DNA from: Bacteroidales bacterium
GTDB lineage: Bacteria; Bacteroidota; Bacteroidia; Bacteroidales; VadinHA17
Assembly (NCBI GenBank): GCA_021157415.1
Contig: JAGGWN010000122.1
Coordinates: 1 to 64,000 of the forward strand
DNA: 64,000 nucleotides
Reading direction: 5' to 3'
This document shows positions 2,373-26,492 of the stretch, one piece after another (position 1 is the first letter of the stretch; the number at the start of each line of letters is the position of its first letter). The notes under the pieces were generated by a model. That model was given only the letters and a program-made list of their open reading frames with translations, was not told where the DNA came from and did no database searches. The position numbers and the translations under genes are program-made.

Positions 2373-2627
2373 GATCCCTTCATAGTTTATTGACTGAATT
2401 CTCATGCAATAAAAGCGTATGATAGCATTGTCAGGTAAGCATATTTTTCTCATTCTCTTATTTTCCGGGATAATTCGGCTATTAGGCATTGATTCTTCCC
2501 GTGCAAAAAAAGGAAAATGATTAGGCAGAGATTTGAAACGCTACCCCTGCAGAGCCAGGGACAAAATTTCATGGGTGTCCAAAGCAAAAACAGGGCATTT
2601 AGGTTTGTGAAAACAAAAAAAAATAAA

Positions 2628-4904
2628 ATGATGAAAAAAAAAGCATTCTTTACACCGCTTTTACTCCTTGCAATCCCGGGTATGATTTTGTTGTCCGGAT
2701 GTTCCTCAAATGCTACGGAGGAAAAGATTAATTCGGATTATGTCGATCCTGATATCGGGGGAGTGGGGTGGTTACTGCAACCCACACGGCCTACGGTATC
2801 GGTACCCAACAGCATGATCCGGATGTATCCTGTGCGACCTGACTGGCTCTCTGACCAGATCAGCTATTTTCCCCTGACCATAAAGTCGCACCGCCAGGGC
2901 GAGTTATTTGGTATTATGCCTTACAAAGGCATCATCGCCGATAGCAGCTGGACAAAAAAGGAGATGTATGACCATGATCTGGAGATCAAACAACCCTGGT
3001 ATTATTCTACCTATTTTATTGATAATTATATAGAAACGGAATATACGGCCGGAAGACATAGTGGTATTTTCCGTTTTAATTATGAAGGAGAACAGCCGAA
3101 GGTGGTTCGCCTGCAGATTAACAATGCCGGAAAATGGATTAAAGCGACCGCTTCCACAGTAGAAGGGGAGGAGGATTTCGAGGGGATGAAAGCCTGGGTA
3201 TATGGGGAGTTCAATGTTGAGGGAGAAAGTTCAAAGACCACGCTGGAGGTGATGAATGCACGCAGGGACACCCGGTATGAAATGCCGTCGGTGCTCTTTC
3301 AGTTTTCGAAAGACACTCCTGCAACCGTTATTTTTAAGTACGGGATTTCTTTTATCAGCCCGGAGCAGGCCCGGAAAAATTTATATGAGGAGATCCCCGG
3401 CTGGGATTTTGTAAAACTATCTGACAGGTCAAAAGAGATTTGGATGTCCCGGCTGAACAAGATCAAAGTGAGAGGAGGCACGGAAAGCCAGCGCAAAGTT
3501 TTTTATACGGCTTTGTACCGTTGTTATGAACGGATGGTTAACATTACCGAAGACGGCCGGTATTATAGTGCCTATGATCACAAAGTACACAAAGCAAATC
3601 ACGATTTCTATGTGGATGATTGGATATGGGATACTTACCTGGCGTTACATCCTTTGAGGATGATCCTGAATCCGGGCATGGAAACGGATATGTTGCGTTC
3701 TTATGTGGACATGTATGAACAGTCGGGCTGGATGCCGCAGTTTCCCTTGCTTTATAAAGATAACCCGGCGATGAACGGGTTTCATTCCACCATTTATTTT
3801 CTGGATGCCTGGCGGAAAGGACTGCGTGAATTTAATGTGCGGAAAGCCTATGAGGGTATGAAGAAGAATGCTTTGCAGGCCACCATGTTGCCCTGGCGTA
3901 ATGGCCCGGCTACCGTCCTGGATACTTTCTACCGGGAACATGGTTATTTTCCGGCCCTTCATCCCGGCGAGAAAGAAACCGTGAAGGAGGTGCATCCTTT
4001 TGAACGGCGGCAGGCGGTGGCTGTCACCCTGGGGGCTGGCTACGACGATTGGGCTCTGGCAGAAATGGCAAAGGATCTGGGCGAAAAAGAAGATTTTGAT
4101 TATTTTATCAAACAATCGCTGAACTATCGCAATCTTTACATGCCGGAGATGAAACTTTTTATGCCAAAGGATGCCGACGGGAACTGGATCAATATTGATC
4201 CGGGGTTTGACGGAGGACCCGGAGGGCGTGACTATTATGATGAAAATAACGGTTATACCTATGCCTGGCAGCCGCAATACGATGTCTACGGGTTGATAAA
4301 ACTTAAAGGTGGCCGGACAGCGTTTACTGCTGAACTGGATCAGCTGTTCCGGGAAGATCTGGGCAGAGCCAGGTACCAGTTCTGGGCGAAATTTCCCGAT
4401 GCCACAGGTTTGGTAGGACAGTTTTGCATGGGTAACGAACCCGGCTTTCATATTCCTTACCTGTATGATTTCTCCGGAGCCCCCTGGAAAACACAAAAGC
4501 ATATCCGTTTTCTGCTGGACGCCTGGTTCCCGGACTATATCTTTGGGATCCCCGGCGATGAAGATGGCGGTGGTATGTCTGCCTTTGTGGTCTTCTCCAT
4601 GATGGGTTTTTATCCGTTCACTCCGGGGCTGCCTGTTTATGCCATTGGGAGTCCGGTGTTTAAAGAAGTGAAAATAAAAATGGATAACGGAAAGACGTTT
4701 GCTGTAATTGCGGATAACTATGCACCGGAGAATAAGTATATACAATCGGCAACGTTCAATGGCAAACCTTGGAATAAGCCGTGGTTTACCCATGACCAAC
4801 TGATGAAGGGAGGGACATTGCAACTCGAGATGGGGGCTTATCCCAATAAAGAGTGGGGAAGTGATAAGGAGGCAGGACCTCCGTCATCGGAAGACCTGAA
4901 GTGA
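2628..4904 (+). CDS. Divergent GH92 family alpha-mannosidase-like lipoprotein
   Basis: I place the start at 2628 (ATG ATG AAA), because the signal peptide KKKAFFTPLLLLAIPGMILLSGC begins there; an upstream ATG at 2517 would add 37 hydrophilic residues. The 758-residue product has the C-terminal GH92 catalytic domain: a Glu in a DENNGYTYAW segment (E539, aligned with the GH92 general acid), GNEP (E604), YLYDF.G.PWKTQ, and GDEDGGGMSAF (D644, D646, the base pair of the family), then GSPVF and a final ENKYIQSATFNG. The N-terminal half lacks the usual FIGT...PG..PFGM block and reads DIGGVGWLLQPTRPTVSVPN instead. GH92 enzymes are calcium-dependent inverting exo-alpha-mannosidases. Specificity is uncertain because of the divergent N-terminus. 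Confidence 0.85.
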   Translation: MMKKKAFFTPLLLLAIPGMILLSGCSSNATEEKINSDYVDPDIGGVGWLLQPTRPTVSVPNSMIRMYPVRPDWLSDQISYFPLTIKSHRQGELFGIMPYKGIIADSSWTKKEMYDHDLEIKQPWYYSTYFIDNYIETEYTAGRHSGIFRFNYEGEQPKVVRLQINNAGKWIKATASTVEGEEDFEGMKAWVYGEFNVEGESSKTTLEVMNARRDTRYEMPSVLFQFSKDTPATVIFKYGISFISPEQARKNLYEEIPGWDFVKLSDRSKEIWMSRLNKIKVRGGTESQRKVFYTALYRCYERMVNITEDGRYYSAYDHKVHKANHDFYVDDWIWDTYLALHPLRMILNPGMETDMLRSYVDMYEQSGWMPQFPLLYKDNPAMNGFHSTIYFLDAWRKGLREFNVRKAYEGMKKNALQATMLPWRNGPATVLDTFYREHGYFPALHPGEKETVKEVHPFERRQAVAVTLGAGYDDWALAEMAKDLGEKEDFDYFIKQSLNYRNLYMPEMKLFMPKDADGNWINIDPGFDGGPGGRDYYDENNGYTYAWQPQYDVYGLIKLKGGRTAFTAELDQLFREDLGRARYQFWAKFPDATGLVGQFCMGNEPGFHIPYLYDFSGAPWKTQKHIRFLLDAWFPDYIFGIPGDEDGGGMSAFVVFSMMGFYPFTPGLPVYAIGSPVFKEVKIKMDNGKTFAVIADNYAPENKYIQSATFNGKPWNKPWFTHDQLMKGGTLQLEMGAYPNKEWGSDKEAGPPSSEDLK

Positions 4905-4999: not shown

Positions 5000-7387
5000 A
5001 TGACAAATATGAATATGAAGAAGTATTTTTTCCTCTCTTTCTTTCTGGTCTTTTTCTTTTCCTGCCGGCCTCAGAAAGATACAAAATCTCCGGTGGATTA
5101 TGTGAATCCTTTTATCGGAACGGATTTCTTTGCCCATATGTTTCCGGGTCCCACGCTGCCGTTCGGCATGGTGCAGTTAAGCCCGGATACGGACATACGG
5201 GGCTGGACCTATTGTGCCGGGTATCAGTATGCCGATAACTCAATCATGGGTTTCAGCCACACCCATTACAGCGGGGTGGGGATGGCGGCGGCGGGGGATA
5301 TTCTGATCATGCCCACTGTCAGTCAAAAACTGCAGGTGACCCCCGGACCCAAGGAATATCCCGGGAAAGGCTACCGTTCAGGATTCGACCACAGGGATGA
5401 AGAGGCATCCCCGGGATACTATTCTGTGCTGCTCAAGGATTATGAGGTGAAAGCAGAGCTGACGGCCTCCCGCAGGGTGGGGATGCATAAATATACTTTC
5501 CCCAACACCAACGATGCCCACATTCTGATTGACCTGGGACATAACATCGGGAAAAGACCGGAGGGAAAATCCCATCTTGAATTTGCGGATAATCATACCA
5601 TACAGGGATATAAAGTGTCTCAGGAAGCGATTGTCTATTTTGTGGCTGAGTTCAGCCGGCCTTTTGACGCTTACGGTACCTGGGATGCCGGTTATGTAAC
5701 CCCGGAATCAGGAGCCTCCGTTTTTCCATGGAAATCGGCCGAATCGGGCAGAAATATAGGTGCTTTTGTTAACTATCGTACCCGCGAAGGAGAGGTGATC
5801 CTGGTGAAAGTCGGCTTATCATATGTGAGTGTGGACGGAGCACGGAAGAATCTGGAGACGGAAATACCTGACTGGAATTTCATGGCAGTGAGAAGAAAAG
5901 CTTACGACACGTGGAATAATGAACTGAAAAAAGTGTCGGTAAAAACCAACGACGTGGGGGAAAAGCAGGTATTTTATACGGCACTTTACCATGCCATCCT
6001 GGCCCAGCGTATTTTCAACGATGTGGACGGGAAATACATGGGCATGGATGGAAAAGTGCATGTGGCTGAAGATTACGATTTCTTTCCGTCCTTTTTTTGC
6101 TGGGATACTTATCGTACCGAACATCCCCTGATGACCCTGGTAGAACCTGAACATGTGAATGATATGATCCGTTCGATAGTGGATAAAACCAGTCATTATG
6201 GATGGTTGCCGGCGCAGCATCATCGCAACAGGTACGGCCAGGGCATGGCCGGGGATCATTTATTTCCGATCATCGTTGATGCTTATATGAAAGGATTCCG
6301 GGACTGGGATGTGAAGTTTCTTTATGATGCCATGTGGAAAAAGGCCACGCAGATGCCTCCCGCACCCTTACCGCCGGAGAACGGCCGATCGGGTCTGAAA
6401 GAGTATGAGACACTGGGTTATGTCCCGGTGGATAAACGACAGGAGTCGGTGTCGAATACGCTTGAACTTGCCTACGATGACTGGTGCCTGGCACAGATGG
6501 CCCGGGCACTTGGAAAAAAGAATGATTACCGGGAGATGATAAAACGAGCCCACAATTATAAAAACCTGTTCGACCCCCGGGTGTGCTTTATGCGGCCACG
6601 GCTGACGGACGGGTCATGGCTACCTGCCTGCAAAGGTCAACCTGCAGGAATAGTCCGGAAAGGGGGTCATTCCTGGTATGATTGTTTTGATCCTCTGCTG
6701 GTGGGCCGCCGTCCGAACAGGTATTTTACCGAATCAAATGCCTGGCAATATGTCTGGTCGGTACAACAGGATATTCCGGGATTGATTGAATTGTTTGGGT
6801 CCAAAGAAAAATTTATCGCCAAACTGGATACTTTTTTTACGATGAGCCCGGAGGTCTCAGGTCCTAAATATGTCGGCGTGGTGGGGACAATCGGCCAGTA
6901 TGTCCAGGGAAACCAGCCTTCACACCATGTGGCGTATTTGTATGATTACGCCGGTCAGCCCTGGAAAACCCAGAAATGGATAAGAGAAGTGATGAAACTG
7001 TACAGGAATAATCCGGGGGGTATATGCGGCAATGAGGATATGGGCTCTCTCTCTTCATGGTTTGTATTCAGTGCCATGGGCTTCTATCCTGTGACCCCGG
7101 GATCAAATGTGTATCTGATCGGTTCTCCGTTACTTGAGGAGGTGACCCTGAAAAAAAATCCTCCGTACAGAAATAAGGATTTTACGATCATTGCACACAA
7201 TGTATCGGACCGGAACAAATACATCAGGTCTGCTACCCTTAACGGACAACCTTTGAACAGAATATGGCTGACTCAGGAAGACATAGTGAAAGGAGGGATC
7301 CTGGTATTTGAGATGGCTGCACTACCGGATACTTCCCGTGGCGGTGATCTTCCCGAGATACCCCGGGAAGTAATCGTTAATAAATAA
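5000..7387 (+). CDS. GH92 family alpha-mannosidase lipoprotein
   Basis: This 795-residue GH92 protein has a lipoprotein signal (KKYFFLSFFLVFFFSC). The ATGs at 5009 and 5015 are equally possible starts; 5015 gives the tidiest signal peptide. The N-terminal domain has VNPFIGTDFF, FPGPTLPFGM, CAGYQY and GFSHTHYSG, all classic GH92. The C-terminal domain has FTESNAWQYVW (E578, general-acid position), GNQP (Q639), YLYDYAG.PWKTQ and GNEDMGSLSSW (N678, D680). Most relatives have GNEP; here the Glu is Gln, a position described as lining the +1 subsite, so linkage preference may differ from alpha-1,2. It should release mannose from alpha-mannosides outside the cytoplasm and pairs with the divergent GH92 upstream. 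Confidence 0.92.
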   Translation: MTNMNMKKYFFLSFFLVFFFSCRPQKDTKSPVDYVNPFIGTDFFAHMFPGPTLPFGMVQLSPDTDIRGWTYCAGYQYADNSIMGFSHTHYSGVGMAAAGDILIMPTVSQKLQVTPGPKEYPGKGYRSGFDHRDEEASPGYYSVLLKDYEVKAELTASRRVGMHKYTFPNTNDAHILIDLGHNIGKRPEGKSHLEFADNHTIQGYKVSQEAIVYFVAEFSRPFDAYGTWDAGYVTPESGASVFPWKSAESGRNIGAFVNYRTREGEVILVKVGLSYVSVDGARKNLETEIPDWNFMAVRRKAYDTWNNELKKVSVKTNDVGEKQVFYTALYHAILAQRIFNDVDGKYMGMDGKVHVAEDYDFFPSFFCWDTYRTEHPLMTLVEPEHVNDMIRSIVDKTSHYGWLPAQHHRNRYGQGMAGDHLFPIIVDAYMKGFRDWDVKFLYDAMWKKATQMPPAPLPPENGRSGLKEYETLGYVPVDKRQESVSNTLELAYDDWCLAQMARALGKKNDYREMIKRAHNYKNLFDPRVCFMRPRLTDGSWLPACKGQPAGIVRKGGHSWYDCFDPLLVGRRPNRYFTESNAWQYVWSVQQDIPGLIELFGSKEKFIAKLDTFFTMSPEVSGPKYVGVVGTIGQYVQGNQPSHHVAYLYDYAGQPWKTQKWIREVMKLYRNNPGGICGNEDMGSLSSWFVFSAMGFYPVTPGSNVYLIGSPLLEEVTLKKNPPYRNKDFTIIAHNVSDRNKYIRSATLNGQPLNRIWLTQEDIVKGGILVFEMAALPDTSRGGDLPEIPREVIVNK

Positions 7388-7509: not shown

Positions 7510-9012
7510 ATGCTTGCAGGAATAGATTTGTTTATTATCATAGCCTACTTTGCCGGGATGATGATCCTGGGGTATTATTTCAAAAGATTTGTAGGGAATT
7601 CGGAGGATTATTTTTTAGGGGGACGAACCTTGCCATTCTGGGCCATCGGTATGTCGGTGGTGGTGTCCGACATAGGGGCCATGGACTTTGTCGGGGTTTC
7701 GGGGCAGGCATACCGTTTTGGCGTATCGGTCGGAAATTTTGACTGGATCGGCTCGGTGCCCGCTATGTTGCTGGCAGCGTTTATTTTTATTCCCTACTTC
7801 TGGCGGGGAGGGATGTACACCATTCCGGAGTATCTTGGAAAAAGATACAACCGTTCCGTGCGAACAATTGCCTCTTTGACCTGGATCACGTTTTTTGCTG
7901 TGGATCTGGGCGTTTTGTTCTGGGCTACGGCGGTACTACTGAATGTGTTAATGGGCTGGCCGGTGTGGCTGTCCATTCTGCTTACAGCCGGAGTGGTGGG
8001 GTTTTATACTTATTTCGGCGGTATTACGGCAGTGGTGATGACTGACGTGGTACAACTGATCATCATGTTTGTGGGTGGGTTTACCTTGGTGTTTCTGGGT
8101 TTTCATGCCGTGGGTGGCTGGGATGCCATGGTGACTAAAATCCACAGCATGGGACCGGAATACCAGCAGCATTTTCATTTAATACAACCCTCGGATACCA
8201 AATCTCCTTTTCCCTGGACCGGAATATTATTCGGCCTTACCTTTGTTATGGCCAATGCTTACATGATCGGGAACCAGACCATCGTACAGCGCTGCCTTAC
8301 GGCCAAAAACGAATGGCATGCCAAAGCCAGCATGATCTTCGGGGCCAGCCTGAAAATGCTGATCCCTGTGTTGGTGATGTTTCCGGGACTGATGGCAATT
8401 ATCCTGCATCCCGGACTGACTGATGGCGATAAGGCTCTTCCACTGATGATTAAGAATATCCTGCCTCCCGGCCTCGTGGGTCTGATGTTTTCAGCCTTTT
8501 TTGCCGGGATGATGTCCAGTGTGGACTCCCTGCTCAACTCTACGGCTACCCTTTTTACCAAAGATATCTATGAACCTTATATTAAAAAAGGTGCGACAGA
8601 TAAACATTACCTGCACGTTGGAAAAATCACTACACTTATTCTGCTGATTCTGGGGGTTATCACTTCACCTATCAGTAGTAAATACCCGGGAATCTATGTG
8701 GCTGTTCAGACGTTCCTGTCCTATTTCCAGGGACCGTTGTTTTCTATCTTGCTGCTGGGTATATTCTGGAAAAAAACTACCCAGTGGGGCGGACTCAGCG
8801 GCCTCATCATCGGCATTGGGGTGGCCGTCATACTGAATACCTTTAAAGGACGCTTCTTTACCATTCAGGATCCTTTCCTGTATGTTTCATGGTGGTCTTT
8901 TGTGACAGGATTTATCGTGACTTTTATCGTAAGCCTCTTTACATCTCCTTATCCTGATAAGAAACTTGTGGGACTGGTTTACAACCTGACTGTGAAAAAG
9001 AGCAATCCATAA
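7510..9012 (+). CDS. SSS-family sodium/solute symporter
   Basis: The protein has 500 residues with about thirteen hydrophobic segments. YFLGGRTLPFWAIGMSVVVSDIGAMDF near the N-terminus is the SSS (SLC5) signature region, and FFAGMMSSVDSLLNS matches the second conserved region that contributes to sodium binding. These carriers import sugars, polyols, sugar acids or amino acids with Na+. It starts a tight run: 21 bases to the first small membrane protein, then 20, 30 and 11 bases to the next genes. The cytoplasmic GH2 and sugar-modifying enzymes downstream suggest it imports an oligosaccharide or amino/keto-sugar, but the substrate cannot be read from sequence. Confidence 0.9.
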   Translation: MLAGIDLFIIIAYFAGMMILGYYFKRFVGNSEDYFLGGRTLPFWAIGMSVVVSDIGAMDFVGVSGQAYRFGVSVGNFDWIGSVPAMLLAAFIFIPYFWRGGMYTIPEYLGKRYNRSVRTIASLTWITFFAVDLGVLFWATAVLLNVLMGWPVWLSILLTAGVVGFYTYFGGITAVVMTDVVQLIIMFVGGFTLVFLGFHAVGGWDAMVTKIHSMGPEYQQHFHLIQPSDTKSPFPWTGILFGLTFVMANAYMIGNQTIVQRCLTAKNEWHAKASMIFGASLKMLIPVLVMFPGLMAIILHPGLTDGDKALPLMIKNILPPGLVGLMFSAFFAGMMSSVDSLLNSTATLFTKDIYEPYIKKGATDKHYLHVGKITTLILLILGVITSPISSKYPGIYVAVQTFLSYFQGPLFSILLLGIFWKKTTQWGGLSGLIIGIGVAVILNTFKGRFFTIQDPFLYVSWWSFVTGFIVTFIVSLFTSPYPDKKLVGLVYNLTVKKSNP

Positions 9013-9033
9013 TCATTTAATCCGGAAAAGAAT

Positions 9034-9249
9034 ATGTTAAATTTTGACTGGCTTTCGGGAATATCGCAGAACATGGCTAAATGGATCTTCTTAGGCCTGT
9101 TTATCCTGATCGGAATACTCGTTCTTTTTATCCCCAATGATTATATCTTTCAGGGAGTGAAGAAACAAGACAGACACTGGTACATGAACCTGAAATTGTG
9201 GGCCATTATTGTACTTGGGATGTTGTTTTATACCTATTATATTTTTTAA
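9034..9249 (+). CDS. Small two-helix membrane protein in symporter operon
   Basis: The protein has 71 residues with two hydrophobic segments (about 15-34 and 52-70) joined by a charged loop (KKQDRHWYMNLK). It has no signal peptide cleavage site and no family I can name. It sits 21 bases after the symporter and 20 bases before another small membrane protein. This position, and the lack of any domain, suggest an accessory subunit or assembly factor for the transporter. That role is inference. Confidence 0.75.
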   Translation: MLNFDWLSGISQNMAKWIFLGLFILIGILVLFIPNDYIFQGVKKQDRHWYMNLKLWAIIVLGMLFYTYYIF

Positions 9250-9269
9250 CTGCACCAAATAACAACATT

Positions 9270-9527
9270 ATGGAACCTACTGATATTGAAAAACAGAAAC
9301 GACAAAAAGCTATGCAGATTAACAATGCATTGGGCCTTTTTATATTATTTTTCGGGATTGTGGTGATCATTGCCGTACCTTTTTCCGATAATTATTATGA
9401 TAAGATGACCAATCTGGTAGCAGGTGTGATCCTGAGTGGTATCGGAGGAGGAACCATCTGGTATGCAAAAAGAGTGATTAAATCGCTGAACATAAAAAAT
9501 ACCGATCCTAAAGATCATGAAAGTTAA
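9270..9527 (+). CDS. Small membrane protein (DUF6249-like topology), symporter operon
   Basis: The frame runs open from 9198, but the ATG at 9270 fits better: it gives a hydrophilic MEPTDIEKQKRQKAMQ start and leaves the previous gene intact. The 85-residue product has a short basic N-terminus, two membrane segments (about 21-39 and 48-66) with a glycine-rich GVILSGIGGGTIW in the second, and a charged tail. Several small Bacteroidota membrane proteins have this layout; I do not assign a function. It is the second of two tiny membrane proteins between the symporter and the GH2 gene. Confidence 0.7.
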   Translation: MEPTDIEKQKRQKAMQINNALGLFILFFGIVVIIAVPFSDNYYDKMTNLVAGVILSGIGGGTIWYAKRVIKSLNIKNTDPKDHES

Positions 9528-9557
9528 TTCGACTTTATTTATCTGGCATGCATAGAT

Positions 9558-12164
9558 ATGATTGTCCTGCATAAAAAGCTTTCGGAAAAGTGGATGATAC
9601 GTTCATCCGGAGAGATAACACAGGGTGGAGCTGAGATTGCAACGCCCGGTTATCGCCCCGTAGGATGGTATCCTGCGGAAGTCCCTTCCACGGTATTGGC
9701 TACCTTGGTGAAAAACGGGGTCTATAAGGATCTTTATGTTGGAATGAATATGGCAAAAGTTCCGACAGAGCAGTTCAGAGTTCCCTGGTGGTATCGAAAT
9801 GAATTTGAGCTCACTGCAGAGGAGGCGGAACAAACGGTACTGGTGAGTTTTGACGGGATCAATTATAAGGCGGATATATGGCTGAACGGCGAGAGAGTGG
9901 AAACCATGGATGCCGTAACAGGAGCTTTCAGACGATTCAAATTCGACATCTCAACATTTGTAAAACCCGGTAAAAATGTCTTGGCTCTTAAGGTAGTGCC
10001 TCCGGGACCGGGAGATTATTCCATAGGTTATGTGGATTGGAATATTGATCCTCCAGATAATAACATGGGGATTTTCAGGGAGGTGGCGCTGCATGTCAAC
10101 AGGGGGATTTCCATGGAGTATCCTTTCATAGATGCTCAGTTTAACCCGGCTAATCCGGAATATGCTTCCCTGACACTTTCTACCGGCGTGCTGAACCATA
10201 CGGATAAAAAAGTGACCGGAATACTGAGAGCGGCCATTGACAGCCTGGAGGTGAGTAAAACGGTGATCCTGGCACCCGGCGAACGGAAAGAGGTTGTTTT
10301 TTCTCCGCACGACTTTCTGGAGCTGAATATCAGAAATCCCAAACTTTGGTGGCCAAACAATTTGGGAGACCCCAGCCTCTATAAATGCAATATTTCTTGT
10401 GAATTAAAAGGGGAAATATCCGACCGGCAGGAAGTGTCTTTTGGGATCCGTAAGGTTGAGGATTTTTTTGAAAACGGTCACCGGGGTTTTAAAATCAACG
10501 GTCATAAAGTAATGATCAAAGGAGCCGGCTGGACGGATGATCTGCTCCTGCAGGATACTCCGGAATCCTTAGAAGCCCAGATCAATTATGTAAAACACCT
10601 GAATCTGAATTGTATCCGGATGGAGGGATTCTGGGGAAAAGACCAGACCTTGTATGACCTGTGTGACCGGAACGGTATCCTGATAATGGCCGGATGGAGT
10701 TGTCACTGGGAACATGAGGAATTCCTCGGCAAGCCGGTAGATCCAAAATACGGAGGAATCGTTGAACCCGAGGAGATTGACCTGATGTCCGGGGCCTGGA
10801 CAGATCAGATCCTGTGGCTGCGTCACCATCCTTCTATCTTCGTCTGGAATGTGGGGAGTGATAAGCTGCCACATCCCGAGGCGGAAAAAAAGTATGCAGA
10901 ATCACTCAGGAAATATGATCCTACCCGGCCTTACCTGAACTCCACAGGCGGCGTGGGGAGTGACCAGGGGGTAATTACCGAAGTAGAGCTGATCAGTGAA
11001 ATCAGCGGATCATCCGGAATGAAAATGCTGGGACCTTATGCTTATACCCCTCCTATATACTGGTATACGGACAAGAATTTCGGAGGAGCCTATGGTTTTA
11101 ATACAGAGACATGTCCGGGAGCCAATGTGCCACCGCTGGAAAGCATCAAAAAGATGATCCCTCCCGAACATCTTTGGCCGGTGGATGAGGTGTGGGAATA
11201 TCATTGCGGAAAAAATACTTTCCGTACGCTTGACAGGTTTATAACAGCCATAGAAAAAAGATATGGAAAACCGGAAGGAGTAGAAGACTTTGCTTTTAAA
11301 GCACAGGTGCTGAATTATGAACTGATGCGTCCGATGTTTGAAGCTTTTCAGGTCAACAAAGCCAAAGCCATGGGTGTGGTACAGTGGATGCTCAACTCAG
11401 CCTGGCCCAATATGTATTGGCAACTGTACGATGCGTTTCTGATGCCTAACGGCGCTTTTTACGCTACACGCAGGGCTTGTACTCCGTTGCACCTGGCTTA
11501 CCATTACGGCGATAGATCCGTGTACTTAATCAATGATTGTTTTTATGACGTGACGGAGCATAAAGCCCGCATCCGTATTTTGGATGTCAATTCCCGGTTG
11601 ATCCTGGATGAAACCGTGGATGCGTATTGCGGCGCAGAGAAAACATCTTTTATTTTTACACTTCCGGAACTGAAAGATATTACGGATTCCTGGTTTCTGG
11701 ACTTAAGATTATTGGATCTGGATGACCGGCAAATAGATCGGAATTTTTACTGGCTTTCCCAAAAACAGGATGTGCTGGATTATGAATATGAATTTGAGGA
11801 TTGGCCGTTTTATACCCCAAGTAAAGAATATGCGGATTATACCGCGTTGCATAAACTTAATAAAGTAAAACTGGATGTGAAATACCGTCACGAGAAAAAA
11901 AATAACGATAACGGCATACACCTGCTGGTTGAACTTACAAACACGGATAAGGTACTGGCATTCTTTACTGAACTGAGTGTATTAAACGGAAAAGAGGGAT
12001 TGACTTATTTGCCGGTGTTCTGGGATGATAATTATGTGACTGTGTTGCCCGGTGAGTCTGTACAACTGAAAGGGGCTATACCTAAAAATATTACGGAAGA
12101 TAATAAACCTGTTTTAAAAGTGACAGGGTGGAATGTGGTGGAGAAAAATTATAATTTATATTAA
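9558..12164 (+). CDS. Cytoplasmic GH2 enzyme, exo-beta-glucosaminidase / endo-beta-mannosidase type
   Basis: The 868 residues show the GH2 order: sugar-binding domain (VPSTVLATLVKNGVYKDLYVG, GINYKADIWLNG), an Ig-like domain, TIM barrel, and C-terminal beta domains. Two features place it in the subgroup of exo-beta-D-glucosaminidases and plant-type mannosylglycoprotein endo-beta-mannosidases: the barrel motif FVWNVGSD with an Asp acid/base candidate (D435), and YGFNTETCPG with the nucleophile Glu (E517). No signal peptide is visible, so it should act on imported oligosaccharides in the cytoplasm. It follows the symporter and two small membrane proteins and lies 11 bases before the aminotransferase gene. 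Whether it cleaves a beta-mannoside or a beta-glucosaminide is open. Confidence 0.85.
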   Translation: MIVLHKKLSEKWMIRSSGEITQGGAEIATPGYRPVGWYPAEVPSTVLATLVKNGVYKDLYVGMNMAKVPTEQFRVPWWYRNEFELTAEEAEQTVLVSFDGINYKADIWLNGERVETMDAVTGAFRRFKFDISTFVKPGKNVLALKVVPPGPGDYSIGYVDWNIDPPDNNMGIFREVALHVNRGISMEYPFIDAQFNPANPEYASLTLSTGVLNHTDKKVTGILRAAIDSLEVSKTVILAPGERKEVVFSPHDFLELNIRNPKLWWPNNLGDPSLYKCNISCELKGEISDRQEVSFGIRKVEDFFENGHRGFKINGHKVMIKGAGWTDDLLLQDTPESLEAQINYVKHLNLNCIRMEGFWGKDQTLYDLCDRNGILIMAGWSCHWEHEEFLGKPVDPKYGGIVEPEEIDLMSGAWTDQILWLRHHPSIFVWNVGSDKLPHPEAEKKYAESLRKYDPTRPYLNSTGGVGSDQGVITEVELISEISGSSGMKMLGPYAYTPPIYWYTDKNFGGAYGFNTETCPGANVPPLESIKKMIPPEHLWPVDEVWEYHCGKNTFRTLDRFITAIEKRYGKPEGVEDFAFKAQVLNYELMRPMFEAFQVNKAKAMGVVQWMLNSAWPNMYWQLYDAFLMPNGAFYATRRACTPLHLAYHYGDRSVYLINDCFYDVTEHKARIRILDVNSRLILDETVDAYCGAEKTSFIFTLPELKDITDSWFLDLRLLDLDDRQIDRNFYWLSQKQDVLDYEYEFEDWPFYTPSKEYADYTALHKLNKVKLDVKYRHEKKNNDNGIHLLVELTNTDKVLAFFTELSVLNGKEGLTYLPVFWDDNYVTVLPGESVQLKGAIPKNITEDNKPVLKVTGWNVVEKNYNLY

Positions 12165-12175
12165 AAAATTAAGTC

Positions 12176-13456
12176 ATGGGAAAAATGGCGGTTAACGGAG
12201 GACTCCCGCTGAGGGATGTGAAAAAAAATCCCTGGCCCGCATGGCCTGTGTGGGACCAGAATGAAGAGAAGGCTTTGCTGGAAGTGTTGCACAGCGGTGT
12301 ATGGTCGTACAATGGACCCAAAGAGATGGAATTTGATCACATGTTTGCCGAATTTTCCGGCGTGAAGTATGCAGTGTCGGCGGCCAACGGCACCGTGACC
12401 CTTCAGTTGGCACTGGAAGCTCTGGGCATCGGCTACGGGGATGAGGTTATTATTCCCGGACTTACCTGGCAGGCTACGGCCGCTTCCGTGGTCGATGTGA
12501 ATGCCGTCCCCATTCTGGTGGATGTACTGGAAGATACCTGGTGCATTGATCCGGAAGAAGTTGAAAAGGCCATAACACCCCGGACCAAAGCTATTATACC
12601 TGTTCATCTTTACGGTAGTTTTGCCGACATGGATGCAATCATGGCCATTGCCCGAAAATACAATCTCTATGTCATTGAGGATTGTGCCCATAAACATGGC
12701 GGAGAATGGAAAGGGGAAAAAGCCGGCTCGATAGGAAATATCGGAAGCTTTAGCTTTCAATTGTCAAAGCATCTGACCGCGGGGGAAGGAGGAATATTGA
12801 CCACTAATAATAAAGAGTTGGCTGATAAACTGGATGCCTTAAGAAACTGCGGAAGAAGGCCGGAAGAAGAGGTCGCTGAAGAGGTGGATAAAGGGGCCGG
12901 ACATTACAACGACGAGGGGAATTTTATCCAGTCGGGAAACTACAGGATCACGGAATTTCAGGCCGCGGTGTTGATAGAAGGACTGAAACGCTTGCCTGAA
13001 CAAAACAAAAAAAGGGATAAAAATGCTATGTACCTGAATGCCCTTCTGAAAAACATACCAGGAGTTGATCCGATAAAAAGAGATAAACGGGAATCCCGGG
13101 AAGCCTATTTTAACTTTAATTTCCGGTATAAAAAAGAGGAGTTCAAAAATCTGCCTGTGGAGAAATTCAGGAAAGCGCTGGCTGCCGAACTCGGAATTGA
13201 TGTGGAAGCCAGTTATGAGCCGCTTAATAATTGTTCCCTGTATGTCCCTTTGACCAAACCTTTCCGCTACCGGATCAATGAAAAACACTGGAAAGCCATA
13301 AATCCTTCGCGATTTGAATTACCGGTGTGCGAAAGGATCTTCCGGGAAGAATCGGTATGTACCCATCATAAGATTCTGCTGGGTGGTAAAGAAGATATGG
13401 AACAGATCGTGTCGGCCATACAAAAAATTTATGACAACGCCGAAGAACTGATGTGA
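12176..13456 (+). CDS. DegT/DnrJ/EryC1 PLP aminotransferase, scyllo-inosose aminotransferase-like
   Basis: This is a 426-residue fold-type I sugar aminotransferase. The PLP Lys is K198 in FSFQLSKHLTAGEGG, and VIEDCAH holds the ring-nitrogen Asp (D169). The N-terminal GGLPLRDVKKNPWPAWPVWD and the TAGEGG after the lysine resemble the subgroup acting on scyllo-inosose or 2-deoxy-scyllo-inosose in aminocyclitol pathways rather than UDP-sugar enzymes, but this is from memory of the family. It would exchange a keto group on a sugar or cyclitol for an amine, or run in reverse to deaminate one. It lies 11 bases after the GH2 gene and 134 bases before a Gfo/Idh dehydrogenase that could supply or reduce the keto group. 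Confidence 0.88.
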   Translation: MGKMAVNGGLPLRDVKKNPWPAWPVWDQNEEKALLEVLHSGVWSYNGPKEMEFDHMFAEFSGVKYAVSAANGTVTLQLALEALGIGYGDEVIIPGLTWQATAASVVDVNAVPILVDVLEDTWCIDPEEVEKAITPRTKAIIPVHLYGSFADMDAIMAIARKYNLYVIEDCAHKHGGEWKGEKAGSIGNIGSFSFQLSKHLTAGEGGILTTNNKELADKLDALRNCGRRPEEEVAEEVDKGAGHYNDEGNFIQSGNYRITEFQAAVLIEGLKRLPEQNKKRDKNAMYLNALLKNIPGVDPIKRDKRESREAYFNFNFRYKKEEFKNLPVEKFRKALAAELGIDVEASYEPLNNCSLYVPLTKPFRYRINEKHWKAINPSRFELPVCERIFREESVCTHHKILLGGKEDMEQIVSAIQKIYDNAEELM

Positions 13457-13489
13457 CGAAAAAAGAATATGATATTCGTTGCTTCATGA

Positions 13490-13497
13490 TATTTTTG
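13490..13497 (+). promoter_or_regulatory. Candidate -7 promoter box before the Gfo/Idh gene
   Basis: TATTTTTG fits TAnnTTTG and lies 94 bases before the ATG at 13591, inside the only sizeable gap of this operon. No good -33 TTTG is visible. Confidence 0.3.
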
Positions 13498-13590
13498 GCA
13501 GTTGATAAATGACATCTGGAGGTTTCCTGTATGTCCGGTTGACCGTTGCAGGCTGGAAATCGGTGAAACGGAAAACAATAAAACAAGGTT

Positions 13591-14592
13591 ATGAAAAAGA
13601 TAAATATTGCACTCATCGGTACCGGATATATAGCTGATTATCATGCACGAGGATTATTGGATCAGGCTGGTGTGAACTTGACAGGGGTGGCCGCGGCTAC
13701 CGGAACCTCTGTGGAAAAGTTTGCTGCCCGCTATCACATAGAAGGAGTCTTAACCACCGATGTTTCCTCCTTGGCAGACCGCGATGATGTGGATGCTGTG
13801 GTCATCGGTACGCCCAATAAGTTTCATGCCCCTTATGCCCTGGAATTTCTCAGGAAGGGAAAGGATGTCTTTCTGGAAAAACCCATGGCCATGAATGCCG
13901 CAGAAGGGGAGGAGATCATGAAAACGGCAAAAGAAACGGGCCGGCTGGTGATGGTGGGTCATATGTGGCGCTTTGACGAAGAAGTGAATTATATGAAAAA
14001 GGTGGTGCTTTCCGGAGCATTGGGAAAGATTGTCAAGTCCAAAGGTTATGGCATTCATGTAAACTGGGGGCCTGAAGGTTGGTTCACCAAAAAGGAACTG
14101 TCCGGCGGAGGTGCTCTGATTGACATGGGGGTCCATGCCATTGATACGGTCAGATATATTCTGGGGGATCCCGACCCCGTGAGTGTCTATGCCCGGATAG
14201 AAACCTGCTACGGAGAGTACGATGTGGATGATACCGGGGTGTTGGTGATCACCTGGAACAACGGGACGATATCTATAATCGAAAGTGGCTGGTGGCAACC
14301 ACACATGGACGGCCCCGAAGCAGCTACCCGCCTGTTCGGTACGAAAGGCTATGGAAGCGTTTTCCCTACCTTTATTAAAAAGAATGATACCCGCGAAGAT
14401 TACAGACTGTCAGGCCCTGCAAAAACCGAGCACTGTGACCAGCGTATCTATACGCGTCAGATGGAACATTTTATTGCATGCATAAGAAACCGGCAACAAC
14501 CTTCTCCGGGAATAACAGAAGGACAGACCATTATGAAGATTGTGGATGCGGCTTACTTGTCTGCACAATACCATAAGGTGATCCGGTTATAA
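13591..14592 (+). CDS. Gfo/Idh/MocA family NAD(P)-dependent sugar dehydrogenase
   Basis: The protein has 333 residues. The N-terminal Rossmann fold has ALIGTGYIADYHARG, and FLEKPMAMN provides the family's EKP motif with its catalytic Lys. The C-terminal half carries GGGALIDMGVHAIDTVRY, with the Asp and His usual at the active site. There is no signal peptide, so it is cytoplasmic. Members oxidise or reduce hydroxyl/keto groups of sugars and cyclitols. Its position behind the DegT aminotransferase suggests a two-step keto/amino interconversion of the imported product. It is the last gene before a 294-base gap and SusC. Confidence 0.9.
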   Translation: MKKINIALIGTGYIADYHARGLLDQAGVNLTGVAAATGTSVEKFAARYHIEGVLTTDVSSLADRDDVDAVVIGTPNKFHAPYALEFLRKGKDVFLEKPMAMNAAEGEEIMKTAKETGRLVMVGHMWRFDEEVNYMKKVVLSGALGKIVKSKGYGIHVNWGPEGWFTKKELSGGGALIDMGVHAIDTVRYILGDPDPVSVYARIETCYGEYDVDDTGVLVITWNNGTISIIESGWWQPHMDGPEAATRLFGTKGYGSVFPTFIKKNDTREDYRLSGPAKTEHCDQRIYTRQMEHFIACIRNRQQPSPGITEGQTIMKIVDAAYLSAQYHKVIRL

Positions 14593-14863
14593 ACCGGTAT
14601 GATTTTATTGTACTAAAGTTATCTATATCATATCTTAACCCAAACATATAGAATATTAACAATCTTTAATATTTGTTAGTTTAAGGGGATGGAATTGTGT
14701 TAAAATACTTTATGCAATAATTAAGATTTATTAAACAAAACTGGATTTTTCTGTTTTAATTTGTTATGTTATAAAATAGTATTTGATAGAAATATACATA
14801 AAACAGAAATAATCCCAAACAGGAGTTTATCCTTTCAAAAGTATTTCCTTTTCAATTTTTCTA

Positions 14864-14886: not shown

Positions 14887-17800
14887 ATGAAAAGAAAAAT
14901 TTTCCAAGTGTTGTTTTTGTTAGTCGTGTTCTCAACGAGTACATTGGCACAAAAAACAGTTAGTGGTGTTGTCACGGATGATACCGGGAATCCTTTGCCC
15001 GGGGCCAATGTTACAATCGTTGGCACGATGCAGGGAACCATTACCGACCAGAATGGTTACTACAGTATACAAGTCCCTTCGAATGAAACGGTTCTGCAGT
15101 TTTCTTTTGTAGGTATGGAAACCCGGAAAATAAAAGTGGGTGACAAAACATCCGTTAATGTTACACTCAAAACATCTTCAGTTGGATTGAATCAGGTTGT
15201 GGTAACTGCTTTGGGCATTTCCCGACAAAAAAAATCCCTGGGTTATGCTGTGGGAGAGGTTGAAGGGAAAGACCTTACGGATGTGCCCCATGAAAATGTG
15301 GTGAGTTCACTTGCAGGAAGAGTGTCCGGGGTTGCCATTAGTTCAACGTCCGGACCCGGCTCCTCTGTCAGTATGGTGATTCGCGGGGCATCTTCTTTGA
15401 CCAGCGATAATCAACCATTGTTTGTGGTGGATGGTATTCCAATGAATAATACACTAAACAATGTGACAGAGATGGCCCGGGATACGAAAGTAGACTACGG
15501 AAATGCTATTTCGGATATCAATCCGGAAGATATTGAAAGCATTTCCATACTTAAAGGACCAAGTGCTGCTGCCCTATATGGATCAAGGGCCGGTAATGGT
15601 GTGGTACTTATTACAACAAAATCCGGAAAAAACAGTAAAGGAGTAGGCGTAACGGTATCTTCCAGTACGGTTCTTGATAATCCTTACAAGTACCTGCCTA
15701 TGCAGACACTTTTTGCCAACGGGAAAAGGCCTTACACTCAGGATAACCGCCCGAATAACGGGTTGCCTTATTATTCGGTACCAGCAGGATCGTCAGGATG
15801 GGTTGGCCCTCAGTTAGATCAGGGTATGATGGCTTACCAGTGGCCCTATTTCAATGAAAATGGGGAGCTTACTGCACGACCATTGGTATCACATCCTGAC
15901 AATTATAAGAATTTTTTCCAAACGGGATTTACGACAGAAAATGCAGTGGCTGTTACCAATGCCACGGATCGAATGAATTATCGATTATCATATAGTAATA
16001 TGCAGAACAAAGGGGTCATTCCTAATAGTGACATGCACAGAAATTCGCTGAATTTAAATTCTTCAGTTAAAATAGTGAAAAACCTTACGGTTACTACAAA
16101 CCTTAATTATGTGAATACCGGTGCAAAAAATCGTCCGGCAGGCAACCGTGGAGCAAATCCGGTGCAAGCACTTTATGATGTAAACCCCCATATAGACATT
16201 CTTCAAATGAAGAATTATTGGGAAGAGGGGAAAGAAGGCATCCAACAGAATGGACCTTATAACCTGGTAGTTAATAGTGATGGCTCCTACGGAAAAGACG
16301 ATATGGGGAATAATCCTTATTTTCTTGCAAATGAAGTAAATAATCCTTTTTCCAGATCACGGATTTTCGGAAATGCAAGGATTGATTGGGAGATACTCCC
16401 CGGTCTGTCTTTTATGGCCCGTTATAATCATGATCAATATAACGAACAAAGGGAAACAAAGATAGCTCCCAGCTACACCAAAGAACCAAATGGTTTTTAC
16501 GGATTGCAAAATCTTTTCAGAATTGAACAAAATACGGATTTCTTGGTTTCCTATAAAAAAGACGTAAGTAATTTTAGTATTTCTGCTTCTGCCGGAGGTA
16601 ATTACAGGTATCAGTATGCTACCAACCATACAACACAGGCAAAGAAAAGAGGTACAGGTTTGATTGTTCCCAATGTTTTTACGCTTTCCAATATTGCTCC
16701 GGATAATTTAACGTATTATTCCAGTTATTCCAAAAAGGGTGTTTATAGTTTATATGGTCTGGTGAGTATGGGATATAAGTCTGTGATTTACCTGGACTTA
16801 ACGGGTCGGAATGACTGGTCCAGTACGCTGCCCAAAGAAAGTCGTTCTTACTTCTATCCTTCGGCCTCCCTGAGTATGCTTTTGAATAAAATGATCGATC
16901 TGGGTAGTAAAGTATCTCTCATAAAACTGAGAGGTGGCTGGGCCATGGTCGGGAATGACACCGATCCATATCGATTGATGCCTACCATGGGAAATGCCGG
17001 GTCATGGGGAAACCAGACGCGCCTGACCACTTCAGGTACATTATTGCTTCCCGATCTGAAACCGGAAATACAAAGCTCTTGGGAAATAGGAACGGATCTG
17101 ACATTTTTTAACAATCGGTTATCGACTTCGGCTACTTATTACAAAGCAGACAATGAAAACCAGATTTTAGGCATCGGTCTTCCTCCTTCATCCGGCTATA
17201 CCTCCAAGCAGATCAATGCAGGTTTGATCGAAAGTAAAGGGATTGAACTTTCTTTGGGAGGAACTCCCATTCAGACCAACGATTTTTCCTGGGATATAAA
17301 TTTCGTATTCTCTAAAAATAAAACCATTATTAAAGAACTGGCGGAAGGCTTTGATTATATTAGACTATGGAGCGATGCCAAGGGAGGTGCATATTCTTGG
17401 GTTGGTGATGAAATTGGCCAGATTATTGACCGGGCTATGGTGCGGGTTAACGATCCCTCTTCTCCTTACTACGGATGGCCTATCCTGGATGATGAAGGAT
17501 GGGAAGATAGTGATCGCACCCTTCAGGATGAAAACGGAAACAGGGTTGCCCCTGTAATCGGAAACTTTAATCCAAAAGCATTGATAGGGATGCAATCTTT
17601 GGTTTCCTATAAACGTTTTACACTTTCTTTTAATCTGGATTGGAGAATTGGCGGACAATTTGTTTCCCAGACTTTCCGTTATGCAGAATCTGATCTTCAC
17701 ACCCAGAGGTGGCTGGATAAAGTGCATAACTTTAATAATATCAGTGACCTTCCAACCTACCTGAAGGAACATGCTGACCAGTATTTGCTTCCGGGAGGAG

Positions 17801-18291
17801 AGTTTTATGTGCTCGTTGGTGGTCCTACCAAGGAACTGGGAGGTCTTGAGCACACTGAAGGAGGTATAACCCTCTATGACGGTGTTTTCATGCCTGGTGT
17901 TGTGGGAGACTATGATGATAATGGTAAATTCATTCCTGTTCGTGAAAACCTGGGAGGCCCGGGCACTCCAACCATCCGGTATCAGGATTATTACGGATGG
18001 AGTTATACTCGTAATGCAACGTTTGATGCGGATTACATTAAACTTAGAGAAATCTCGCTGACCTATCAGCTTCCTGCTGTTTTGAAAGGTGTTAGAAATC
18101 TGTCTGTATCATTGTACAGTCGTAACATTATCCTTTGGACCAAAGCCAAAATAAATGTGGATCCCGAGTTGGCATTCCAGCCGGAAAGCGATGTGCAAGG
18201 AAATGGTATTCAGTTTAAGCAGGGAATTGAAAGATATAATGTTGCCCCCTGGACAATCCCCGTTGGTTTTAAATTAAATATAAGTTTCTAA
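14887..18291 (+). CDS. SusC/RagA family TonB-dependent outer-membrane transporter (pair 1)
   Basis: The protein has 1134 residues. A signal peptide ends near TLAQ, a carboxypeptidase-regulatory-like domain follows (about 23-105, VSGVVTDDTGNPLPGANV), then a plug (SSLAGRVSGV, SMVIRGASSL, PLFVVDGIPM, ISILKGPSAAALYGSRA) and a large beta barrel ending in an aromatic C-terminus (KLNISF). It imports glycans through the outer membrane with the SusD lipoprotein encoded 26 bases downstream. No anti-sigma-binding STN domain is present at the N-terminus, so sigma/anti-sigma control through this receptor is unlikely. It shares long barrel blocks with the second SusC in the window, for example NDWSSTLPKESRSYFYPSAS. 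Confidence 0.96.
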   Translation: MKRKIFQVLFLLVVFSTSTLAQKTVSGVVTDDTGNPLPGANVTIVGTMQGTITDQNGYYSIQVPSNETVLQFSFVGMETRKIKVGDKTSVNVTLKTSSVGLNQVVVTALGISRQKKSLGYAVGEVEGKDLTDVPHENVVSSLAGRVSGVAISSTSGPGSSVSMVIRGASSLTSDNQPLFVVDGIPMNNTLNNVTEMARDTKVDYGNAISDINPEDIESISILKGPSAAALYGSRAGNGVVLITTKSGKNSKGVGVTVSSSTVLDNPYKYLPMQTLFANGKRPYTQDNRPNNGLPYYSVPAGSSGWVGPQLDQGMMAYQWPYFNENGELTARPLVSHPDNYKNFFQTGFTTENAVAVTNATDRMNYRLSYSNMQNKGVIPNSDMHRNSLNLNSSVKIVKNLTVTTNLNYVNTGAKNRPAGNRGANPVQALYDVNPHIDILQMKNYWEEGKEGIQQNGPYNLVVNSDGSYGKDDMGNNPYFLANEVNNPFSRSRIFGNARIDWEILPGLSFMARYNHDQYNEQRETKIAPSYTKEPNGFYGLQNLFRIEQNTDFLVSYKKDVSNFSISASAGGNYRYQYATNHTTQAKKRGTGLIVPNVFTLSNIAPDNLTYYSSYSKKGVYSLYGLVSMGYKSVIYLDLTGRNDWSSTLPKESRSYFYPSASLSMLLNKMIDLGSKVSLIKLRGGWAMVGNDTDPYRLMPTMGNAGSWGNQTRLTTSGTLLLPDLKPEIQSSWEIGTDLTFFNNRLSTSATYYKADNENQILGIGLPPSSGYTSKQINAGLIESKGIELSLGGTPIQTNDFSWDINFVFSKNKTIIKELAEGFDYIRLWSDAKGGAYSWVGDEIGQIIDRAMVRVNDPSSPYYGWPILDDEGWEDSDRTLQDENGNRVAPVIGNFNPKALIGMQSLVSYKRFTLSFNLDWRIGGQFVSQTFRYAESDLHTQRWLDKVHNFNNISDLPTYLKEHADQYLLPGGEFYVLVGGPTKELGGLEHTEGGITLYDGVFMPGVVGDYDDNGKFIPVRENLGGPGTPTIRYQDYYGWSYTRNATFDADYIKLREISLTYQLPAVLKGVRNLSVSLYSRNIILWTKAKINVDPELAFQPESDVQGNGIQFKQGIERYNVAPWTIPVGFKLNISF

Positions 18292-22611: not shown

Positions 22612-22626
22612 TATAAGAGGAAGAGA

Positions 22627-22648: not shown

Positions 22649-22673
22649 AAACTGACAAACAGAAACAGTAAAT

Positions 22674-24621: not shown

Positions 24622-25623
24622 ATGATAAAACCTGACCATTATTACATTGGCTTTGATATCGGAGGAACGAAGTGTGCTGTGGTATTGGGGGACAATGATT
24701 TCAATATTTACGAAAAAATAACTTTCCCGACCCGTACTTCGGAACGGGGATGGTCGGAGGTGCTGGATGAGTTTAAGAAGCATGCCACATCTTTTATCAA
24801 TAAATATGACAGGAATAAGCTGGTAAAGATAGGTATCAGTTGTGGAGGTCCGCTGGATTCGAAGAAAGGAATCATTTATTCCCCACCCAACCTGCCCGGA
24901 TGGGATGCTGTGCCTGTAACCGGATTTTTTGAAAAAGCCCTCGGCGTACCTGCCATACTTCAAAACGATGCCAATGCCAGCGCTCTGGCCGAGTGGATGC
25001 TGGGTGCCGGAAAAGGTACACAGAATATGATCTTCCTGACCTTTGGTACGGGCATGGGGTCAGGATTGATCCTGGACGGTCACCTGTATGCCGGTACCAA
25101 TGACCTGGGAGGGGAAGTGGGCCATGTTCGAATGGCTGAAAAGGGTCCCGTAGGATTTAATAAAGCCGGATCCTTTGAGGGTTTCTGCAGCGGCGGAGGA
25201 ATCGCCCAACTGGCAAAGAAAATGGTTTCGGAGAAACTGGAGAACGGAGAACCCGTAGCTTTCTGTCCTGATACCACACACCTCCCTGAGATCACGGCTA
25301 AAACAGTCTTTGAAGCAGCACAAAAAGAAGACATTCTGGCCCTGGAGATCGTGAGGATCTCGGCCGAATATCTTGGTAAAGGACTGGCAATACTGATCGA
25401 TATCCTTAATCCCGAATGTATTGTAATCGGGAGTATCTATGCCAGAAATGAAGCATTGTTCAAACCGCATATGATGAAAATACTGAAAAAAGAAGCCATC
25501 CCTGCAGCATTGGAGGTGTGCAGGATCGTTCCTGCCGGGCTGGGCGACACCATCGGCGATTATGCTGCGCTTAGCGTGGCGCTGAATGATGAACCAGGCA
25601 ATGTGCAGGGTACACTGAAATAA
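24622..25623 (+). CDS. ROK family sugar kinase
   Basis: This 333-residue cytoplasmic kinase has YIGFDIGGTKCAVVLGD (phosphate-binding), GISCGGPLDS, LQNDANASALAEW (catalytic Asp region), TFGTGMGSGLILDG and NDLGGEVGHVRM (the ExGH-type substrate motif). The usual zinc-binding CxCGxxGC is replaced by GSFEGFCSGGGI, so zinc binding is not expected. ROK kinases phosphorylate hexoses such as glucose, ManNAc, GlcNAc or fructose. It lies between the kinase-phosphatase fusion and the SIS isomerase and may phosphorylate a sugar freed by the glycosidases. The substrate is not determined. Confidence 0.88.
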   Translation: MIKPDHYYIGFDIGGTKCAVVLGDNDFNIYEKITFPTRTSERGWSEVLDEFKKHATSFINKYDRNKLVKIGISCGGPLDSKKGIIYSPPNLPGWDAVPVTGFFEKALGVPAILQNDANASALAEWMLGAGKGTQNMIFLTFGTGMGSGLILDGHLYAGTNDLGGEVGHVRMAEKGPVGFNKAGSFEGFCSGGGIAQLAKKMVSEKLENGEPVAFCPDTTHLPEITAKTVFEAAQKEDILALEIVRISAEYLGKGLAILIDILNPECIVIGSIYARNEALFKPHMMKILKKEAIPAALEVCRIVPAGLGDTIGDYAALSVALNDEPGNVQGTLK

Positions 25624-25637
25624 AAAAGACAACGTAA

Positions 25638-26428: not shown

Positions 26429-26474
26429 ATTGTAATCTGGAAATGAATTGTAATTTGAAAATTGTAATATGGAA
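26429..26474 (+). repeat. Three imperfect 14-base direct repeats
   Basis: ATTGTAATCTGGAA, ATTGTAATTTGAAA and ATTGTAATATGGAA start at 26429, 26447 and 26461, ending 18 bases before the ATG at 26493. They may be a binding site, or just slippage-derived AT-rich sequence. Confidence 0.4.
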
Positions 26475-26492
26475 TTTTTAAAAGCTCAGATT

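Follow-up and report, generated by a model that had tools for sequence, protein, structure and literature searches.

We analysed a 64,000-nucleotide stretch (the window) comprising positions 1 to 64,000 of contig JAGGWN010000122.1, part of the assembly GCA_021157415.1 of a Bacteroidales bacterium (3.28 Mb in 128 contigs), and followed up a block of six genes at 7510-14592 that opens with a symporter of the SSS family and two very small genes. The symporter seems to be an SGLT-type carrier that ends after its 13th transmembrane helix (TM13), with the last, 14th helix detached, and the alignments described below indicate that the first small gene most likely encodes this helix. These six genes belong to a longer Bacteroidales polysaccharide-utilisation locus, and the best explanation as a whole, which we hold at a probability of about 0.6, is that they represent the inner-membrane and cytosolic half of that locus with a split SGLT-type symporter. 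The six genes are as follows:

7510-9012, + strand: SSS symporter, 500 amino acids (aa)
9034-9249, + strand: small protein 1, 71 aa, two transmembrane helices
9270-9527, + strand: small protein 2, 85 aa (start codon ATG, 9270)
9558-12164, + strand: glycoside hydrolase of family GH2, GH2_16-type, 868 aa
12176-13456, + strand: DegT/DnrJ/EryC1/StrS aminotransferase (DegT), 426 aa
13591-14592, + strand: Gfo/Idh/MocA dehydrogenase (Gfo/Idh), 333 aa

For small protein 2, a mechanical list of open reading frames (ORFs) gives 109 aa from a GTG at 9198; the 85-aa start was used here. The intergenic gaps from the SSS to the Gfo/Idh gene are 21, 20, 30, 11 and 134 bases, the last lying between DegT and Gfo/Idh. 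An earlier first-pass annotation had described a gene chain with gaps of 21, 20, 30 and 11 bases; its coordinates, order and strand were confirmed, and the families were assigned by Pfam and NCBIfam. The six genes it named are real, but the locus is larger, as it also includes two GH92 genes, a SusC/SusD pair and a kinase/isomerase set.

To place the block among its relatives, the GH2 protein was used as a query against genome contigs, which gave 11 loci, eight of them close (60-75% identity); three further full loci were obtained by searching for the GSU2086 family protein, encoded further downstream, in 295 genomes of the order, making a total of 11 close loci. The closest named relatives are Bacteroidales metagenome-assembled genomes (MAGs). 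In all 10 close loci whose contig extends far enough, the SSS and GH2 genes are separated by both small genes; in one of these loci, L006, the small genes were confirmed by sequence reading. GH2 is followed by DegT in 11/11, and DegT by Gfo/Idh in nine of the ten with enough contig. The proposal that the genes form a single block is thus upheld by the gene order in relatives. When the window was compared with these relatives, small protein 1 showed a nonsynonymous rate (dN) of 0.07-0.23 and a synonymous rate (dS) above 1.4 or saturated in 10/10 pairs, and small protein 2 a dN of 0.02-0.36 and a dS of 0.5 to saturated, also in 10/10. Because they are kept in all ten relatives and dN is far below dS, neither small gene is a chance ORF and both evolve under purifying selection. 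Two Bacteroidota MAGs (L013 and L014) carry two tandem, distant GH2 genes with ~27% identity to that of the window, in a different cluster.

The small genes are not generic; they track one clade of SSS carriers. A search of 395 genomes of the phylum with small protein 1 returned four matches, the window included. Two genomes, G019 and G361, have the small gene immediately 3' of an SSS gene, with no GH2 or DegT, and the match in G308 (E 2e-4, one internal stop, adjoining a MarC-like gene by eye) was set aside as chance. SSS carriers were sampled from the best 30 loci of a 296-genome search, 10 loci of the window's own genome, 40 further loci and the close relatives, and the resulting tree of 89 carriers contains one clade of 25 with an SH-aLRT support of 98, or 100 after dropping 8 long-branch or odd rows. 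Long branches meet at the join of this clade, as the program warned for the first tree; the reduced tree raised another such warning, yet the join was unchanged. A small membrane ORF lies directly downstream of the carrier in 25/25 members (L006 counted after sequence reading), as opposed to 2/64 outside the clade, and the distance is within 50 bases in all but L155, where it is 121. The association of the small genes with SSS carriers, for which the first-pass annotation had suggested a synteny search, is therefore a conserved one. A regular-expression motif in the carrier tail was abandoned as an association test and replaced by the tree: it gave 8/8 versus 0/31 in the first sample, from which it had been picked (a duplicate gene counted once), and 4/6 versus 3/34 (p 0.005) in the second, with L119 (motif, no partner), L155 (partner 121 bases away), L156 and L157 (partner, no motif) and L138 (chance ORF) as exceptions. 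Since sister carriers adjoin a galactokinase gene (L170 by Pfam; L167 and L168 by eye) or an FGGY kinase and a class II aldolase (L171), the clade most likely transports sugars. The L170 locus, at 5354-8585 of contig C95 in the window's own genome, encodes in succession a galactokinase, an SSS carrier of the long type and a single small protein with two helices, and this trio is an internal control for the split carrier within the same genome.

The window carrier matches PF00474 with 258.8 bits (gathering cut-off 22.8) and is collinear with vSGLT (2xq2, 242 bits) over residues 3-481. Residues N260, K294, Q428 and S364/S365 of vSGLT, which we take to be sugar- and Na2-site residues, align with N249, K282, Q400 and S336/S337 of the carrier, so that sodium-coupled sugar transport is its putative function. 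An SGLT carrier has 14 helices (PMC10203128). vSGLT holds all 14 in one chain, and the window carrier does not: by hydropathy and alignment, the C-terminal helix is absent in 12/12 carriers of the window type. These are 497-513 aa long, compared with 541-608 aa for the 13 sister carriers of the clade. The last helix is flush with the C-terminus (0 residues beyond it) in 13/13 sisters, whereas 20-35 residues follow it in 12/12 window-type carriers, which terminate just past a shared LVGLVY motif. The number of partners also differs within the clade, the sisters having one small protein and the window type two, and the loss of the helix coincides with the gain of small protein 1 in all 12 rows, on one branch.

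Small protein 1 has an extra helix and then helix 2 (window sequence HWYMNLKLWAIIVLGMLFYTYYIF), which was compared with the tails of the sister carriers, for example that of L156 (WYRHPKLWASVVLVVLITVNIIFW). Helix 2 aligns end to end with 13/13 sister tails, always in the same register (offset -1, out of 9 possible). The mean score was 15.1, as against -8.1 (standard deviation 5.2) in 300 column-permuted controls, of which 0/300 scored as high. Median scores against small protein 1 were 12.3 for the tails of the 13 sisters, 9.8 for 47 other SSS carriers and 2.6 for 30 other membrane ORFs with a C-flush helix, and SSS tails exceeded the other C-flush tails with p 4.5e-4 (13 sisters) and 2.3e-6 (47 other SSS). 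A motif preceding the helix, W(Y)xNx(K/R), occurs in 13/13 small-1 proteins, in 5/64 outgroup tails and in 0/940 other windows, and the charge pattern of the loop lysines and arginines of small protein 1 matches the orientation of TM14 by eye.

Several observations weigh against a split carrier. The pre-helix motif is found in 0/13 sister tails, and hhalign gives small protein 1 against the tails a probability of only 15 (P 0.0018). The tail is the top-scoring window of its own carrier in only 5/13 sisters, and likeness between short hydrophobic helices can be misleading. Outside the clade, carriers L092, L100 and L141 have neither a clear last helix nor a small partner, which implies that loss of the helix need not be made good by another protein. 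The predicted structure of the carrier, with a predicted local distance difference test score (pLDDT) of 35, is too poor to support any model of the carrier or of a complex, and the link of small protein 2 to the sister partners described below amounts to 23% identity over 61 columns. At the level of the locus, L009 lacks Gfo/Idh beside DegT and has an unrelated gene there (an MFS carrier by eye), and a gap of 294 bases with a terminator-like stem follows Gfo/Idh, so that the locus may be transcribed as more than one unit. Because of the weak hhalign result, the 5/13 tails and the three partnerless carriers, we put a split carrier at even odds or slightly better. The same hhalign value and partnerless carriers would fit a different view, in which each small protein is no more than an ordinary accessory or chaperone subunit, a peripheral last helix was simply lost and the likeness of small protein 1 to it is convergence; small accessory proteins of SSS carriers are indeed known from the pairs YhdT-PanF, YjcH-ActP and MAP17-SGLT2. 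Convergence would, however, have to produce one register in 13/13 sister tails, a score reached by 0/300 permutations and above that of other C-flush tails, and a helix loss that goes together with the gain of small protein 1 throughout one branch (12/12 rows), and we consider it unlikely. That the small proteins have no link to transport and are, for example, toxin-like or stress peptides hitch-hiking in the locus agrees with their matching no known family and is very improbable given the 25/25 versus 2/64 link to one carrier clade across loci with different enzymes.

For small protein 2, which probably has two membrane helices, hhalign against the sister partner gave a probability of 84 (E 7.5e-6), compared with 1.4-15 for the other pairs, and the 85-aa protein looks like an accessory subunit common to the carrier clade. 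The first-pass annotation had taken both small proteins for accessory subunits; this holds for the 85-aa protein in appearance, but not for the 71-aa protein, which most likely is the carrier's own detached helix. Small SSS neighbours already described include YjcH (DUF485), YhdT (DUF997), DUF4212 and DUF3311. The window genes resemble these in being small two-helix genes adjoining SSS. However, neither small protein matched any Pfam or NCBIfam family above cut-off, and together with three sister partners they gave no Pfam or NCBIfam match to DUF485, DUF997, DUF4212 or DUF3311, nor any to these at Pfam E up to 1.

A further likeness is to MAP17 (PDZK1IP1), the subunit of SGLT2, which is likewise a small membrane protein accompanying an SGLT-type carrier; the comparison is one of description rather than of sequence. 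What human SGLT papers call M13 or TM13, counting from zero, is presumably the last helix, TM14 in our numbering. According to two such papers, MAP17 binds helix M13/TM13 of the SGLT carrier (PMC9616851, PMC10203128), and it is essential for uptake by hSGLT2 and increases hSGLT2 surface expression (PMC10203128). The window genes differ from MAP17 in being bacterial and in an operon, with one small protein that seems to be the helix itself. The carrier likewise agrees with vSGLT and human SGLT1 and SGLT2 (SSS, SLC5) in its collinearity and its site residues, and differs in that its chain stops before the 14th helix. Small partners of SSS carriers are thus already known, and a split carrier whose last helix is a gene of its own is what seems to be new; no description of a split SSS carrier was found in the open-access literature searched. 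We give an even chance to the proposition that gene fission has turned the last helix of a LeuT-fold sugar symporter into a separate two-helix protein, and that carrier, two-helix protein and a further small protein form an assembly in which all three subunits are obligatory. Such an assembly would be the bacterial equivalent of SGLT-MAP17, kept across families and in loci with different enzymes.

The enzymes of the block suggest what the carrier may import. The GH2 protein contains an Ig_GlcNase domain (Pfam, 101 bits) and aligns end to end (12-860) with the GH2_16 enzyme CsxA (2vzs, 482 bits). In the GH2_16 signature, according to PMC12243196, SD replaces NE and Glu replaces His; the Glu was taken as E394 of CsxA by reading of the alignment. 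The window enzyme has S434-D435, E356 and the nucleophile E517, the same set as CsxA, and these motifs are kept in 11/11 relatives. It differs from CsxA in that it has no signal peptide by eye and belongs to a series of cytosolic enzymes that follows a symporter. We predict a cytosolic enzyme of the exo-beta-glucosaminidase type, active on beta-linked glucosamine (GlcN), which makes an amino sugar a likely cargo. The DegT protein (PF01041, 329.7 bits; pyridoxal phosphate lysine K198) was described in the first-pass annotation as scyllo-inosose-aminotransferase-like, and its nearest solved relatives are indeed 2-deoxy-scyllo-inosose aminotransferases (5w71 and 2c7t at 313 bits, 312-313 bits end to end when 5w70 is included; next 199), so that a cyclitol is a candidate substrate. 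Unlike these enzymes, it lies in a sugar-degradation locus, with no 2-deoxy-scyllo-inosose synthase among the genes examined. The Gfo/Idh protein (GFO_IDH_MocA, 102 bits; EKP at 96; GGGxLxDxGxH) is closest to inositol dehydrogenases (IolG), but scores 160 bits with TIGR04380, below the cut-off of 355.

In G019 and G361 the split carrier is preceded by GH92, phosphatase and GNAT genes and by a gene for an alpha-N-acetylglucosaminidase of family GH89 (NAGLU). Because a hexosaminidase-type enzyme thus adjoins the carrier in both kinds of locus, the most economical cargo is a glucosamine-bearing saccharide that remains after mannose trimming. In these two genomes the loci (L165, 380-12600, and L166) hold GH92, an alkaline phosphatase, a purple-acid-type phosphatase, GNAT and GH89 NAGLU, Pfam having been run on L165 only; the pairing of GNAT with NAGLU is reminiscent of lysosomal heparan breakdown. 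The earlier idea that an amino compound is imported fits an enzyme of the exo-beta-glucosaminidase type, though the exact substrate is something we can only infer.

Taken together, the reading with a split carrier may work as follows. The GH92 enzymes and SusC/SusD would act outside, and a short saccharide, probably bearing an amino sugar, would cross the inner membrane via the SGLT-type sodium symporter. The carrier chain would stop after TM13, the 71-aa protein, having gained one preceding helix, would supply TM14 in trans, and the 85-aa protein would be a second, peripheral subunit that stems from the common ancestor of the clade and has a MAP17-like role. The cytosolic GH2 would cut off beta-linked glucosamine, DegT and Gfo/Idh would modify an amino/keto position, either in what is left of the saccharide or in the product, and the ROK, SIS and PfkB-HAD proteins would channel the sugars into central metabolism. 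We infer the physical complex, its topology, a requirement of transport for either small protein, the substrate and the direction of the DegT and Gfo/Idh reactions.

Three more specific substrates were considered. Chitosan-like or 3-amino-sugar material is doubtful: DegT and Gfo/Idh would remove or install a 3-amino group in a reversal of the kanosamine/GlcN3N pathways (NtdABC, RifKLMN, GnnAB), which would suit the GH2_16 residues, the DegT and Gfo/Idh pair, and the HAD domain and ROK kinase in the locus. Kanosamine catabolism, drawn from these four components, was demoted from the leading interpretation because DegT scores 313 bits with cyclitol aminotransferases but 119 bits with NtdA, which makes the former much its nearer relatives; it also leaves the GH92 enzymes unexplained, and nothing relevant to it was found in the open-access literature searched. 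Somewhat less probable is a pseudodisaccharide of the glucosaminyl-cyclitol type, derived from mannosides that bear phosphate and resemble glycosylphosphatidylinositol (GPI) or phosphatidylinositol mannosides. GH92 and phosphatases would trim it outside, and DegT and the IolG-like Gfo/Idh would work on the cyclitol part, in keeping with their closest relatives and with the genes before the split carrier of G019 and G361. The glucosamine of GPI is alpha-linked, however, and no other Iol enzyme is present among the genes examined. GH2 enzymes, by contrast, cleave equatorial bonds (PMC12243196). Least probable is that the locus serves lipopolysaccharide inner core or heptose glycans, with SIS, PfkB-HAD and ROK acting on manno-heptose and GH2 on GlcN-beta-GlcN. 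Heptose enzymes are the best matches of SIS and PfkB, and no GmhA or HldA scores above cut-off genome-wide. Those matches fall far under the curated cut-offs, with 148 bits against 209 for the D-sedoheptulose 7-phosphate isomerase NCBIfam (SIS) and 128 against 345 for the heptose kinase NCBIfam (PfkB), and the kinase/isomerase module adjoins GH38 and an AGE-type epimerase elsewhere, so mannose fits at least equally. No match for heptose catabolism was found in the open-access literature searched.

The further features of the locus on either side of the block are:

2517..4904, + strand: GH92 (a), Pfam PF07971, 503 bits; kept 5' of SSS in relatives
5000..7387, + strand: GH92 (b), PF07971, 581 bits; lipoprotein-like signal by eye
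14583..14597, + strand: terminator-like stem where the Gfo/Idh gene ends; the region has 14 such stems versus 10.2 expected (standard deviation 3.3)
14887..18291, + strand: SusC-like outer-membrane transporter, from its translation and its position adjoining SusD; conserved in L006, L008, L011 and L066
18318..20024, + strand: SusD-like lipoprotein, PF12771, 253 bits
20124..21515, + strand: PhoPQ_related protein with a lipoprotein-like signal, PF10142, 366 bits
21577..22611, + strand: GSU2086 family protein, NF052581, 296 bits, above the cut-off of 250
22674..24572, + strand: fusion of a PfkB kinase and a HAD phosphatase, Pfam and NCBIfam profile matches
24622..25623, + strand: ROK family sugar kinase, PF00480, 184 bits
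25688..26356, + strand: SIS isomerase, GmhA-like but below cut-off in profile matches
26469..29015, + strand: lipoprotein with a beta-propeller and a phosphoesterase domain, PF04185, 53 bits; conserved in L062 and L065

The beta-propeller/phosphoesterase gene is probably the end of the cluster. The Bacteroidetes -33/-7 promoter pattern has two matches in the window (1.5 expected) and none in the block. A second cluster, mainly on the minus strand, follows at 29060-46523 with BNR, PKD, a YdjC-like lipoprotein, GH31, an esterase-like protein, DUF6807 and Gfo/Idh, and includes a second SusC/SusD pair on the + strand at 38517-43627.

The module at 21577-26356 (ROK, SIS, PfkB-HAD and GSU2086) recurs in other Bacteroidales, with GH92 beside it in G523, GH38 and an AGE-type epimerase in G416, GH38 in G652, and AGE and LacI in G567; G504 has PfkB-HAD and GSU2086 only. 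A Chloroflexota plasmid carries separate HAD, GSU2086, PfkB and SIS genes with an ABC sugar transporter. GSU2086 matched in 15/395 genomes of the phylum and 9/295 of the order, and in 14 other phylum genomes (L032-L045) it lies mostly near a GT9 heptosyltransferase-like gene by eye. It was dropped as a key to the pathway, as its neighbours vary between the GT9-like gene in the phylum and the ROK-SIS-PfkB module in Bacteroidales. No solved relative was found at E up to 1, and its predicted structure has a pLDDT of 39.

The previously unnamed small genes thus gain a functional setting, and the locus becomes an uncharacterised candidate for amino-sugar utilisation. SGLT2 requires MAP17 for reasons that are understood only partly, and a clade in which every carrier examined has a small partner gene, with a sub-branch that seems to be split, would offer a simple system in which to test the role of the last helix and of the partner.

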